Position numbers and translations under genes: made by a program. Of a stretch of DNA of 64,000 bases, positions 34,400-39,294 are shown in pieces. Numbering within the stretch: the first letter of the stretch is position 1; each line of letters starts with the position of its first letter. This DNA comes from Fidelibacterota bacterium (GTDB taxonomy: Bacteria > Fidelibacterota > Marinisomatia > Marinisomatales > TCS55), in contig JAPYRG010000005.1 of assembly GCA_029936965.1 (NCBI GenBank), positions 1 through 64,000 on the forward strand. Direction: 5' to 3'. The notes under the pieces are model-generated. The model did not search any database. It was given only the letters and a program-made list of their open reading frames with translations, and was not told the origin of the DNA.

Positions 34400-35473
34400 A
34401 TGTCAGATAGAAAAATCATACACGTTATAGGGACTGGGACAATTGGAGAACCTTTAATTGGACTATTGACAGATTACAAAGATAAAATTGGGATTGATCA
34501 AGTTACGTTTCACAAAAATAGTGCATTAAAAGGTGATTTTACTAAAGTAATAGATTTGCAAAAACGTGGAGCACATTTAGCTGTTGATAATGATAAAATA
34601 GAAGATTTTCGTACTCTTGGAATGAATCCTGAGTTTGAAACTGAACAAGCTATTGCCAGAGCGAGCGTAGTAATTGATTGTACACCAAAAGGCATTGGAC
34701 ATAAAAATAAAGAAAAATACTATTCTAAATTTTCAGATAATGTAAAAGGTTTTCTTGCCCAAGGAAGTGAATCGGATTTTGGTAAAAAATATGCCCTTGG
34801 GATCAATGACGAAGCATTAAATATTGATGATGATCAATTCATCCAAGTAGTCTCATGTAATACGCATAATATTTCATGTATAACCAACACTATTGCTTTA
34901 GATGGGAATAGTGCAGATAATCTAGTTGAAGGTAAATATCTATGCGTTAGAAGAGCGAATGATATGCATCAAGAAGATGGTTATATTCCTTCACCTTTAG
35001 TAAATGAACATCTTACAGAACAATTTGGGTCGCATCATGCTGAAGATGCGGCTAACTTATTTAAGACTCTAAATTTTGATTTAAATCTTTTTTCTTCAGC
35101 CATGAAGGTAAATAGTCAGTATATGCATGTCCTTTGGTTCTCAATAAAAGTGGATGAACCAATTAGTTTAGATGATGTGAAAAATAAACTATATCAAAAT
35201 CAACTTGTTGCTTTTACATCAAAGAACTTAACTAGTCGTGTATTCTCATTTGGCAGGGATCATGGTCATTATGGAAGAATTTTAAATCAAACTGTAGTAG
35301 TTGAACAAACTTTGAATGTTAAGAATGGTAACGAAATAAGTGGTTTTTGTTTTACACCTCAAGATGGAAATTCTATTCTTAGTAGCTTATCGGCATCATT
35401 ATGGTTTCTTTATCCTGATTCATATAAAGAAAAAATTAAAGCCCTATCTCACTTATTTTTTGAAAATATTTGA
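34400..35473 (+). CDS. archaeal-type (class II) glyceraldehyde-3-phosphate dehydrogenase-like protein
   Basis: This NAD(P)-binding dehydrogenase has 357 residues. It starts with a Rossmann loop GTGTIG (residues 11-16) and carries VVIDCTPKGIGHKNKEKYY, very like the archaeal GAPDH stretch IDCTPEGIGAKN, then the presumed nucleophile C153 in VVSCNTHNIS (archaeal VVSCNTTG) and a paired histidine in FGSHHAEDAANL (archaeal PSHHGPDV). The C-terminal region LTSRVFSFGRDHGHYGRILNQTVVVEQ also follows the archaeal pattern. Bacterial class I GAPDH motifs such as SCTTNC are absent. Carbon substrate and cofactor are inferred, not seen. It overlaps the hydrolase gene by four bases. Confidence 0.75.
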   Translation: MSDRKIIHVIGTGTIGEPLIGLLTDYKDKIGIDQVTFHKNSALKGDFTKVIDLQKRGAHLAVDNDKIEDFRTLGMNPEFETEQAIARASVVIDCTPKGIGHKNKEKYYSKFSDNVKGFLAQGSESDFGKKYALGINDEALNIDDDQFIQVVSCNTHNISCITNTIALDGNSADNLVEGKYLCVRRANDMHQEDGYIPSPLVNEHLTEQFGSHHAEDAANLFKTLNFDLNLFSSAMKVNSQYMHVLWFSIKVDEPISLDDVKNKLYQNQLVAFTSKNLTSRVFSFGRDHGHYGRILNQTVVVEQTLNVKNGNEISGFCFTPQDGNSILSSLSASLWFLYPDSYKEKIKALSHLFFENI

Positions 35474-36117
35474 AACTTCAAGTTCACAGTCTAATTACTG
35501 GTCCTTTCCAGGAAAATAGTTATATCCTAAGTGAAATGTTATCTAAGGATTGTATATTAATTGACCCTGGAGATGAAGCAGAAAAAATTTGTTATTTCAT
35601 CGATAGTAATAAATTCAATCCTATCGCTATAATTAATACGCATGCCCATTTAGATCATATAGGAGCCGTACAAGAAATAAAAAATAAATATAATATACCT
35701 TTTTATCTTCATTATTTAGAGAAGCCTATACTGGAATCGTATCCTATGTCATGTAGATTGTTTGGTATTACAGCTAAACCAATACCAACAGTAGATAATT
35801 GGATACAAGAAGGCGGTGAATTAAATATTGGCATATTCAAATTTTCCATTATTGAGACACCAGGTCATACCCCTGGAGGTTGTTGTCTTTTAATTGAAAA
35901 GTTACTTTTTGTCGGGGACACACTTTTCCATGGTTCTGTTGGAAGAACTGACTTGCCAGGAGGAGATTGGGATATGCTAGAAGAATCACTTTTATATCTT
36001 ATGGAGAATGTGAAATCTGATGTAACGGTTTATTCAGGACATGGTATAGAGACTAATCTTAGGATTGAGAAGGAAAAAAACCCTTTTTTAATTTCACTTA
36101 AATCCAATTTAAATTAG
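35470..36117 (+). CDS. metallo-beta-lactamase fold hydrolase (glyoxalase II-like)
   Basis: This 215-residue single-domain hydrolase has the complete zinc motif THAHLDHIG (H58, H60, D62, H63), a third histidine in TPGHTPGGCC, the bridging aspartate in FVGDTLFHGSVGRTDLPGG and the last histidine in YSGHGIETNL. The layout is that of YcbL/hydroxyacylglutathione hydrolase-like enzymes, which hydrolyse thioesters, but the C-terminal glutathione-binding domain of true glyoxalase II is absent. The start is TTG 35470, overlapping the GAPDH-like stop. Whether it acts on a product of that dehydrogenase is unknown. Confidence 0.85.
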   Translation: MKLQVHSLITGPFQENSYILSEMLSKDCILIDPGDEAEKICYFIDSNKFNPIAIINTHAHLDHIGAVQEIKNKYNIPFYLHYLEKPILESYPMSCRLFGITAKPIPTVDNWIQEGGELNIGIFKFSIIETPGHTPGGCCLLIEKLLFVGDTLFHGSVGRTDLPGGDWDMLEESLLYLMENVKSDVTVYSGHGIETNLRIEKEKNPFLISLKSNLN

Positions 36118-36163: not shown

Positions 36164-37927
36164 ATGAAAATTTCAGATAAAATAAAAGAATATAAAAAAC
36201 AAAAAAAAGTATTCTATAGTTTTGAATATTTTCCACCCAAAACTGATTTTGGTATGGATAATTTATATAGTAGAATTGATAAAATGTCCTCTCTTGATCC
36301 AGCTTATATTGATATTACTTGGGGTGCAGGCGGTAGTACAGCAGAAAGAACATTAGATATGAGCAAAACAATTCAAAAATACTTTGGATTGGATGTTATG
36401 ATGCATCTTACTTGTACAAATATGTCTGTTAAATTGATAGATGAGGTTCTTTCTGAAGCTAAAAAAAATAACATTTCTAATATATTGGCCCTTAGAGGAG
36501 ACCCACCGGAAGGTAGTAATGAGTGGCGAAAAGAAAATCAGGCATTTAATTATGGTGTAGATTTAGTTCATTATATTAGAAAAAATTTCGGTGACACATT
36601 TTTTTTGGCTGTAGGGGCATATCCAGAAACGCATCAAGAGCAATCTGATCCTGACTTAGATATTACTTATTTAAAAGAGAAGGTAGACGCAGGTGTTGAT
36701 ATTATCGTTACTCAGTTATTTTATGATATAGATAAATTTCTCATATTTAGAGATAAATGTTTATCCAAAGGAATAGATATACCCATTATTCCAGGAATTA
36801 TGCCAATTCATAATTATTCTAGATTTAGAAAATTTACTCAGTTTTGTAAGGTAAATATTCCTGAAAATATTCTTAAAAAACTTGAACCAATAAGAAATGA
36901 TGATGCAAGTGTAATTAATTTTGGTATTGAGGAGGGAGCCGATATGTGTGAAAAGCTAGTAAAAGAAGGGGTGCCAGGATTGCATTTCTATACGCTCAAT
37001 TTAGAGCATTCGGTAAAAGAAATATTAAACTCAATTGGATTGATTTCAGATAACAAAGCTAATAGAGAACTACCTTGGAGACAATCTTCAGATGAAATCA
37101 GAAAATCATCTGAAGATGTTCGTCCAATATTTTGGAGTAATCGTCCAATAAGCTATCTTACTCGCACTGAAAACTGGGATGATTTTCCGAATGGTAGATG
37201 GGGAGATATAAGTAGTCCTACTTTTGGTGAATTAAACCAATATCATGCAATAAGAGCGGGATCGCAGAGTAATGAAATTAGAGATAAAAGAAAAAAGATT
37301 TGGGGTCAGCCACAGTCTATAAAAGATATATCAAATGTTTTTATGTCTTTTTGCAAGGGAGATATTAATGCTTTGCCTTGGTGTGAAACAAAACTTGCAA
37401 TTGAAAGTAAGCAGATTTCTAATGAATTAATCAAATTAAATGAATCAGGATATTTTACTATAAATTCACAACCTAATGTTAATGGGGTCCCATCTGATGA
37501 TACTCATTTTGGATGGGGAGCTGAAGGCGGAAGAGTATACCAGAAAGCATATTTGGAGTTTTTTACTTCAAAAGAAAATCTTGATATATTAATAACCAAG
37601 ATTAAAAAGAATAATAATATTTCATATCAAGCTGTAAATGTATCTGAGGATCTAATTTCAAACGTAAGAAAAGATAGCGTAAATGTTGTAACATGGGGAG
37701 TGTTTCCTGGTGAGAAGATAAAACAACCAACTATAGTGGATGCACGCTCGTTCATGATCTGGAAAAATGAAGCGTTTAGCCTATGGATAAATGATTGGGC
37801 ATCTATTTATGAAAAAGATTCTATTTCTTACTTATTATTAAAAAAAATATATGAAAATTATTATTTGGTAAATATTGTAGATAATAACTTTATTAAAAGT
37901 AATATGATAAAACAGATTATAAAATAA
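36164..37927 (+). CDS. metF: methylenetetrahydrofolate reductase with a eukaryote-like C-terminal regulatory domain
   Basis: This reductase makes 5-methyltetrahydrofolate from 5,10-methylenetetrahydrofolate using FAD, supplying methyl groups for methionine. Residues 1-292 are the catalytic barrel: FEYFPPK with catalytic Glu21, YIDITWGAGGST, HLTCTNM, NILALRGDPPEG and IIVTQLFYD. Bacterial MetF ends there, at about 300 residues; this protein has 587. Residues 303-587 match the eukaryotic MTHFR regulatory domain: LPWRQS linker, EDVRPIFWSNRPISY, WDDFPNGRWGD, FTINSQPNVNG, VYQKAYLEFFTSKE, VTWGVFPGEKIKQPTIVD and YYLVNIVDNNF. From memory of the human structure, the SAM contacts correspond here to P304, W305, E414, T432, S435, T510 and T523, all present. 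Allosteric inhibition by SAM is therefore predicted. The stop overlaps tilS by one base. Confidence 0.93.
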   Translation: MKISDKIKEYKKQKKVFYSFEYFPPKTDFGMDNLYSRIDKMSSLDPAYIDITWGAGGSTAERTLDMSKTIQKYFGLDVMMHLTCTNMSVKLIDEVLSEAKKNNISNILALRGDPPEGSNEWRKENQAFNYGVDLVHYIRKNFGDTFFLAVGAYPETHQEQSDPDLDITYLKEKVDAGVDIIVTQLFYDIDKFLIFRDKCLSKGIDIPIIPGIMPIHNYSRFRKFTQFCKVNIPENILKKLEPIRNDDASVINFGIEEGADMCEKLVKEGVPGLHFYTLNLEHSVKEILNSIGLISDNKANRELPWRQSSDEIRKSSEDVRPIFWSNRPISYLTRTENWDDFPNGRWGDISSPTFGELNQYHAIRAGSQSNEIRDKRKKIWGQPQSIKDISNVFMSFCKGDINALPWCETKLAIESKQISNELIKLNESGYFTINSQPNVNGVPSDDTHFGWGAEGGRVYQKAYLEFFTSKENLDILITKIKKNNNISYQAVNVSEDLISNVRKDSVNVVTWGVFPGEKIKQPTIVDARSFMIWKNEAFSLWINDWASIYEKDSISYLLLKKIYENYYLVNIVDNNFIKSNMIKQIIK

Positions 37928-39294
37928 TGAGACAACAGAAATTACATAGTTTTGAAAAATCCTTATTAAATAGTATATATACAATAGGATATGTTAAGAG
38001 CAATCAGAGTATCATTATAGCTGTTTCTGGTGGTAAAGATTCTATGGCACTATTACATGCCATGATAAAATTAAATCATTTACTGAAACTAAATCTAATT
38101 GCTGTACATATTAACCACCATATAAGAAAAAATTCTACAGCAGATGAGTTATTTGTTAAAGAATTTTGTGATCTCAATGATGTAGAAATTATTATTGATC
38201 ATCTTGACCCAGATATAAAGTCAAAAGATATGAGTATTGAAGAATGGGGACGAGAGTTACGCTATAAGTCATTATATAGAATTTCATCCAATTTTGATTC
38301 TTGTCATATTATGACTGCACATCATGGAAATGATCAGATAGAAACAATTCTATTTCATTTATCACAAGGAGCCGGAGTTTCTGGATTAAGAGGTATACAT
38401 TCAAAAAGAAATAGACTAATAAGACCACTCTTATCATTATCTAATAATAAAATAGACAACTACATACAAGATATTGGAATTCCATGGATTGAGGATCAAT
38501 CAAATAGCGATTTATCTATTCCACGTAATTTCTTAAGACATAAAATTGTTCTTCCTTGGGAAAAAGAAAATCCTAATTTGGTTTCAGCGTTTAACCAAAT
38601 TAGTAAGAATGCTAATGATGTGCATGAATCATTAAAGTTTTCTGCAAGTATTCTAATTCCACAATTAATTTGCAATAAAGAGGATGATCAAATTTTCTTA
38701 GATGAGCAACTATTAAAAGCTATCCCTCCATACTTATTATCAATTATTTTTCAGGAACTGACTTTGTCAAATGGGCCATGGAGAAGACATATCCATTATG
38801 AATTATATAATTTTGTTACATGCTCTAAAATTGGTCAGATATATAATATAGATAATAGCTGGAGGTTACTTAAAGACAGGAAAAAATTTATACTAAAATA
38901 TGAAGATTATATTAAAAAAAATTCAATACCTGTTAATCCAGATACAGAAATATTAATAGATAATTTTATTTTTTCTTGGAAATCAAGTACAACAAAAGAG
39001 CAATTCAATAATTCGTATAGTTCAGAAATAATTGATGCAAATAAAATAAGGAACAAGACCCTAAATCTGAGATTATGGGAAAAAGGAGATAGGTTTAAAC
39101 CAATTGGCATGAAAGGGTCAAAAAAATTAAGTGATTTTTTTATAGATGAAAAAATTGATATTTTTACTAAAAACAAACAGTGGTTATTATTAGATGGTAA
39201 TAGAATAATTTGGGTTTGTGGTAGAAGAATCAGTGATGATATAAAGATCACTTCTAAGACTAGAAAATTTGGAAAATTTATTTTTAAGAAATGA
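37927..39294 (+). CDS. tilS: tRNA(Ile)-lysidine synthase
   Basis: This N-type ATP pyrophosphatase converts the wobble cytidine of the AUA-decoding tRNA-Ile to lysidine. It has 455 residues. The PP-loop SGGKDS is at residues 34-39, followed by VHINHHIRKNSTADELFVKEFC, MTAHHGNDQIETILFHLSQGAGVSGLRGI and RPLLSLSNNKIDNYI. The C-terminal TilS_C domain is present (LWEKGDRFKPIGMKGSKKLSDFFIDEKI). It shares one base with metF. Confidence 0.93.
   Translation: MRQQKLHSFEKSLLNSIYTIGYVKSNQSIIIAVSGGKDSMALLHAMIKLNHLLKLNLIAVHINHHIRKNSTADELFVKEFCDLNDVEIIIDHLDPDIKSKDMSIEEWGRELRYKSLYRISSNFDSCHIMTAHHGNDQIETILFHLSQGAGVSGLRGIHSKRNRLIRPLLSLSNNKIDNYIQDIGIPWIEDQSNSDLSIPRNFLRHKIVLPWEKENPNLVSAFNQISKNANDVHESLKFSASILIPQLICNKEDDQIFLDEQLLKAIPPYLLSIIFQELTLSNGPWRRHIHYELYNFVTCSKIGQIYNIDNSWRLLKDRKKFILKYEDYIKKNSIPVNPDTEILIDNFIFSWKSSTTKEQFNNSYSSEIIDANKIRNKTLNLRLWEKGDRFKPIGMKGSKKLSDFFIDEKIDIFTKNKQWLLLDGNRIIWVCGRRISDDIKITSKTRKFGKFIFKK

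Follow-up and report, generated by a model that had tools for sequence, protein, structure and literature searches.

A eukaryote-type two-domain methylenetetrahydrofolate reductase, very probably inhibited by SAM, encoded in the chromosome of a Marinimicrobia bacterium

The methylenetetrahydrofolate reductase (MTHFR) of eukaryotes, known from the structures of the human enzyme (6FCX/8QA4-8QA6) and of Chaetomium thermophilum cMTHFR (8UY1/8UY2), joins a TIM barrel to a SAM-binding regulatory domain (RD) by a long linker with LPW and FPNGRW motifs. In the human enzyme, SAH or the first SAM molecule (SAM1, site 1) is contacted by P348, W349, E463, T464, T481, S484, T560 and T573, and A368 lies near the sulphonium (PMC5995969). 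A second SAM (site 2) is held by FPNGRW 384-389, W583 and the D289-A292 loop, and Q509 lies between both ligands (PMC11018872). In the SAM-bound state the active site is closed by an aromatic plug, which is YYLF 403-406 in human and includes Y361 in Chaetomium (PMC11018872, PMC11183114), and Y404 is essential in the human enzyme (PMC11018872). The short MetF of bacteria, such as that of E. coli, Thermus and several Marinimicrobia relatives described below, catalyzes the same reaction, but is a single domain of about 290-340 aa that has no SAM-binding domain.

The RD has been regarded as a eukaryotic feature in papers dated from 2018 to 2026. Prokaryotes were described as free of SAM regulation and the RD sequence as unknown beyond eukaryotic MTHFR (PMC5995969), while other reports stated that the RD is absent from bacteria or prokaryotes or typical only of eukaryotes (PMC11183114, PMC13001107, PMC11018872), and Pfam gives the two-domain architecture as typical only of eukaryotes (PMC11701544). 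The domain DUF6919 (PF21897), a standalone bacterial relative, shares SAM-site residues with the RD (PMC11701544). No description of a bacterial two-domain MTHFR was found in the open-licence literature, and a report outside it may exist. The RD itself is thus known; what appears to be new is that it occurs in bacteria, that it exchanges with ordinary MetF as a swap-in and that it can help to trace the eukaryotic enzyme.

The window, i.e., the whole stretch of 64,000 nucleotides analysed here (contig JAPYRG010000005.1 of a Fidelibacterota genome, the phylum also called Marinimicrobia), carries a long metF at 36164-37927 (+) as a single open frame of 587 aa, according to the list of open reading frames and their translation. 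The product matches MTHFR (PF02219) at 374 bits (E 4.8e-112, residues 7-292) and MTHFR_C (PF21895, 'SAM-binding regulatory domain') at 310 bits (E 2.4e-92, residues 301-586), so that with its length and two domains it is not an ordinary MetF of one catalytic domain of about 300 aa. Among NCBIfam models, the eukaryotic-type TIGR00677 is reached at 384 bits (cut-off 310), and the general TIGR00676 is also matched, more weakly. The best PDB relatives over the whole chain are Chaetomium 8uy1 (577 bits, E 3e-172) and human 6fcx (556 bits, E 7e-166), with about 41-45% identity in the catalytic domain and 48% in the RD. The FAD/folate-site residues E21, D50, T52, H81, R111, Q184 and Y276 are all retained. 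In the PDB alignment the N-terminus coincides with the start of the human catalytic domain, and the Ser/Thr-rich, phosphorylated N-terminal extension of animal-type MTHFR has no counterpart; lower eukaryotes also have none. The RD also has a weak similarity to DUF6919 (E 1.3e-6, residues 377-487; model of 183 positions), a domain that stands alone and is not fused to MTHFR. An earlier note, made from the letters of the window alone, had proposed a MetF with a eukaryotic-type regulatory half; its coordinates, strand and length were exact, every motif that it quoted is in the translation, the phosphorylated extension is missing as it said, and the family search that it suggested for the C-terminal half returned PF21895 and a full-length alignment with human and Chaetomium MTHFR. 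As a separate observation, residue 178 (36695-36697), at the position of human A222V (677C>T), is Val in the window protein; 37 other bacterial long forms have Ala or Ser there. The features are collected in Table 1.

Table 1. Features of the long metF and its surroundings, in window coordinates where given.
Feature	Coordinates	Strand	Basis
357-aa GAPDH-like protein, conserved beside MBL-metF-tilS in Marinimicrobia	34400-35473	+	NF003251, PDB match
MBL-fold hydrolase, conserved upstream neighbour of long or short metF in relatives	35470..36117	+	neighbourhood comparison
metF, long form, two-domain methylenetetrahydrofolate reductase	36164..37927	+	ORF, Pfam, PDB alignment
Catalytic domain, TIM barrel, PF02219, residues 7-292	36182..37039	+	Pfam, alignment, structure comparison
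Inter-domain linker, about residues 293-365	37040..37258	+	alignment; segment roles from PMC11018872, PMC11183114
Linker motifs: LPW 303-305, EDVRPIFW 317-324, S325, FPNGRW 341-346, Y360-H361	within 37040..37258	+	alignment
Linker end and SAM-binding regulatory domain (RD), PF21895, residues 301-586	37064..37924	+	Pfam, RD model
Glu414 = human Glu463, SAM1 ribose and sulphonium contact	37403..37405	+	alignment; PMC5995969
TINSQ 432-436 = human T481-Q485, SAM1 adenine contacts	37457..37471	+	alignment; PMC5995969
Thr510 to Thr523 = human Thr560, Thr573; methionine-moiety contacts of SAM1	37691..37732	+	alignment; PMC5995969
tilS, downstream neighbour of long or short metF in relatives; marks replacement slot	37927..39294	+	neighbourhood comparison
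SAM_alpha candidates upstream of metH, loci L155, L156, L157, L158, L159, L160, L161, L163, L166			

Taken together, we consider it very probable that this is a functional chromosomal eukaryote-type two-domain MTHFR that is inhibited by SAM, with SAM binding, allosteric inhibition and the linker plug deduced from the homologous human and Chaetomium structures. At site 1, the equivalents of human P348, W349, E463, T481, S484, Q485, Q509, T560 and T573 are all identical in the alignment, the exception being human T464, which is Ser415. At site 2, FPNGRW 341-346, W533 and D247 match human F384-W389, W583 and D291, while the human D289 loop is in part altered (NDDA); the position of human Ala368 is Ser325, as in some lower animals. 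The seven SAM/SAH residues singled out beforehand (P304, W305, E414, T432, S435, T510 and T523) proved to be the counterparts of human P348, W349, E463, T481, S484, T560 and T573. Across 37 other bacterial sequences, site 1 is invariant at the equivalents of P348, W349, E463, S484, Q485, Q509, T560 and T573 and site 2 at those of P385, N386, G387, R388, W389 and W583, and the T481 and F384 equivalents show one variation each. The plug positions read Y360-H361-A362-I363 against human YYLF; Y360 aligns with human Y403 and Chaetomium Y361, and both plug positions, Y360 and H361, are Tyr or His across the bacterial long forms, with few exceptions. A linker plug is therefore plausible in the bacterial enzyme, since the Chaetomium Tyr is retained, though human Y404 is replaced by His361.

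The fold was modelled by AlphaFold with bacterial sequences only as input. Both domains of the full-length model are confident, and the arrangement of the domains is left unpredicted because linker residues 304-365 have pLDDT mostly <50. Chaetomium and human MTHFR take the top Foldseek ranks for this model (E 6e-58 to 4e-48) at a TM of about 0.5, a value due to the orientation of the domains not being fixed. The RD-only model (pTM 0.79, with low confidence in its first ~65 residues, which belong to the linker) retrieves 13 MTHFR chains, with E from 1e-27 to 2e-24, the next structure lying at E 0.17, and overlays the human RD in 8qa4 with TM 0.89 and rmsd 1.5 A. The RD is under purifying selection, like the catalytic domain: its dN/dS is 0.08-0.22 in 7 of 8 pair comparisons within Marinimicrobia, the same range as for the catalytic domain, and the eighth value of 0.37, between the window and a 95%-identical relative, comes from few changes. 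The overlay, PF21895, the full-length PDB match, the conserved SAM sites and this selection bear out the proposal that the C-terminal half is a homologue of the eukaryotic-type RD.

By analogy with the eukaryotic enzyme, SAM feedback inhibition is most likely the function of the RD. The N-terminal TIM barrel would reduce methylene-THF to methyl-THF for MetH; when SAM is plentiful, the C-terminal RD would bind it, draw the linker into the active site and shut the enzyme, and SAH would favour the active state, whereby one-carbon flow into the methionine/SAM cycle could be set at the protein level. The host encodes the SAM/SAH cycle, as metH lies on contig 35 of the window's genome and ahcY and metK on contig 49. 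Bacteria, too, would then probably throttle their methyl supply by a SAM switch. It could be asked whether the RD mainly serves dimerisation or stability, or binds a different ligand, with SAM control lost or retuned. The RD is the dimer interface in eukaryotes (PMC5995969), the plug residues differ from human (Y404 to His361), and a candidate SAM-II-type riboswitch already precedes metH in this host (32.9 bits, gathering score 36). Nevertheless, it is the residues touching SAM, beyond those of the fold, that are invariant across five phyla, the conserved site-2 residues matter only when SAM is bound (PMC11018872), and by dN/dS the constraint on the RD matches that on the catalytic domain, which makes the alternative improbable and SAM inhibition the preferred reading.

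Regulation by RNA may accompany that by protein in this group. Candidates of the SAM_alpha riboswitch (RF00521, SAM-II-type), a family named after Alphaproteobacteria in Rfam, score above the gathering score at nine Marinimicrobia loci (Table 1), where they precede a metH-metF-metK-ahcY operon in several relatives and metH alone in others. The sub-threshold candidate of the window's genome (L153:2174-2250) ends 20 bases before metH, and the window metF itself, which sits in the tilS cluster, has no riboswitch match. The candidates stand upstream of metH in short-form and long-form genomes alike. A role of the RD as a replacement for an absent SAM riboswitch is not supported: both layers coexist in the long-form genomes G049, G044 and G020, so the RD is no simple substitute. 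Most probably, SAM would curb the synthesis of MetH by way of RNA, and that of methyl-THF by acting on the RD of MetF itself.

To describe the distribution, two RD peptide motifs were searched in a set with a single genome for each GTDB species; being strict, these motifs may overlook other forms. Among 43 loci, one is a eukaryotic contaminant and 42 are bacterial, assigned by record title and search group to Acidobacteriota (19), Marinimicrobia (12), an Oligoflexales type (7), Myxococcota (3) and Planctomycetota (1); the archaeal records, also one genome per GTDB species, have no match to the two strict motifs. With the RD profile, the domain turns up in 13 of the 245 genomes of the window's phylum, Fidelibacterota; in the group around an Acidobacteriota member the figure is 15 of 396 sampled genomes, and for the Oligoflexales group it is 7 of 58, while TIGR00677 is above its cut-off in 3 of 5 genomes of a small group around the Myxococcota copy and in 1 of 294 sampled Planctomycetota. 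The lone Planctomycetota copy could be a binning error, and for that reason it carries no weight. All bacterial long-form copies come from MAGs or other uncultured assemblies, the closest named one, with 94% identity in the RD, belonging to a Candidatus Neomarinimicrobiota MAG. The long form is the only MTHFR in all 11 long-form genomes of other phyla, and the only one found in the window's genome (2.14-Mb assembly, rated 97% complete). Carriage by viruses, phages or plasmids was rejected: none of the viral contigs encodes the RD, phage and plasmid matches cover the catalytic half only, and a query with the RD alone finds nothing on plasmids.

With MAGs, eukaryotic contamination or a protist gene mis-binned into a bacterial bin has to be considered, and bins do contain such genes. 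At L086:3897-5947, a contig of a Verrucomicrobiaceae MAG (JAIYDP010000498.1) holds a eukaryotic MTHFR with short introns and exons in different frames, an instance of contamination in public genomes. The window gene, however, is free of introns and the only metF of its genome, both of its halves match the neighbouring genes in base composition and codon usage, and conserved bacterial genes flank it. The same arrangement is seen again in 9 Marinimicrobia genomes, two Acidobacteriota long forms sit on contigs of 3.9 and 4.6 Mb, and a direct grouping of eukaryotes with Marinimicrobia is rejected (AU p 0.0016). Linkage, recurrence and composition rule contamination out, and we give it next to no credence, in agreement with the earlier note, which saw no sign of it in gene density and base composition.

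The relatives of the window's genome reveal how the long form came into its place. Of the 61 relatives, 50 encode an MTHFR catalytic domain, always as a single copy. Ten of these are long forms (372-387 bits), another long form is interrupted by a contig break (G020), and the remainder are short forms at 164-218 bits and one outlier at 31 bits. Long and short metF together occur in none of the 61. The short metF adjoins tilS in 16 of the 19 short-form loci read, usually as GAPDH-like-MBL-metF-tilS, and the other three read metH-metF-metK(-ahcY). In the window and eight other genomes the long metF takes the tilS slot; in three it belongs to the metH-metF-metK-ahcY operon (cut off at metF by a contig end in one of them), and in one it lies elsewhere, so that operon slot and neighbourhood are common to both forms in these relatives. 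As two distantly related enzymes exchange in two slots without duplicates, the long metF has displaced the short metF in place in Marinimicrobia. The GAPDH-like neighbour in the window has no Pfam match and is distantly like archaeal type II GAPDH (NF003251 98.9 bits, below cut-off; PDB 2yyy E 3e-16). In the outlier G054 (L160:3498-4433), what lies between metH and metK, in the metF slot, is a highly divergent MetF-like protein (PF02219 31 bits, MRIKDKIKRPRRPVVAYEILPP).

Furthermore, the long metF has moved between families of the order. Identity between the copies of G017 (family f1) and G044 (family f9) reaches 92% for the protein and 93.5% for the DNA, far above the values for their metH genes (65% and 68%, respectively); a weaker case is G049/G036, with 87% for metF and 70% for metH in protein; and the gene tree joins both pairs across families (support 100/98-99). 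For the window and its genus mate G005, metF identity is 70%, below the 75% of metH. The statement that recent transfer is not suggested therefore stands in part: the composition of the window copy matches its neighbours, but the long metF did replace the short form and did pass between families.

For the origin relative to eukaryotes, trees of the catalytic domain were rooted with short MetF and contained three to five eukaryotic rows, namely human and Chaetomium from PDB alignments, the yeast Met12 catalytic domain and the hand-spliced contaminant L086; an unverified Arabidopsis row entered some alignment and tree runs, and no conclusion depends on it. In two data sets the bacterial long forms and the eukaryotic enzymes group in a single clade, apart from short MetF (100/99 and 100/100). 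The Marinimicrobia long forms fall into a clade of their own, whose sister is an Oligoflexales-type sequence (99/87 to 100/97). A union of Marinimicrobia and eukaryotes that excludes other bacteria is rejected at the AU p of 0.0016 given above, which rules out direct capture by Marinimicrobia from a sampled eukaryote. In the two data sets, AU tests reject neither the monophyly of all bacterial long forms (p 0.44 and 0.37) nor that of all eukaryotes (p 0.38 and 0.24), so either direction of transfer between bacteria and eukaryotes is possible; the placement of eukaryotes, whose branches are long, shifts with sampling. The tree that the earlier note had called for thus unites the bacterial with the eukaryotic forms, and the bacterial monophyly by which it meant to judge ancestry is neither rejected nor established.

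We tentatively put forward, giving it somewhat less than an even chance, that the two-domain SAM-inhibited MTHFR is a bacterial invention from MetF and a DUF6919-like SAM sensor, that it is still moving as a swap-in for unregulated MetF, and that eukaryotes acquired theirs from bacteria. The same functional enzyme may instead have reached bacteria by transfer from a eukaryote and then spread among them, which would suit its patchy, low frequency (the 13/245 Fidelibacterota, 15/396 in the Acidobacteriota group, 7/58 and 1/294 above) and the description of the RD in the literature as general in eukaryotes. Against this, the bacterial long forms branch deeply and come from five phyla, with none placed close to any of the three to five eukaryotic rows, and the standalone relatives of the RD, DUF6919, are bacterial (PMC11701544); we regard such a transfer as possible, though less likely than not.

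This marine Marinimicrobia bacterium, together with scattered representatives of some four further bacterial phyla, breaks the eukaryote-only rule for the RD, and their long forms are outgroups for tracing where the human RD came from. The regulated and the unregulated enzyme in the same operon slot of close relatives are natural matched pairs in which the benefit of SAM feedback is testable. For structural studies of this medically important switch, bacterial long forms may also provide enzymes that are simple and not phosphorylated.

Two observations concern the Oligoflexales group. Outside Marinimicrobia, a long metF directly adjoins metH in convergent orientation in an Oligoflexales genome (L080:5868-9560). 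In group relatives that do not have the long form (L136-L148), proteins of 620-680 aa carry the MTHFR domain at the C-terminus and, judged from length and domain position only, are probably of the fused homocysteine methyltransferase-MTHFR type.
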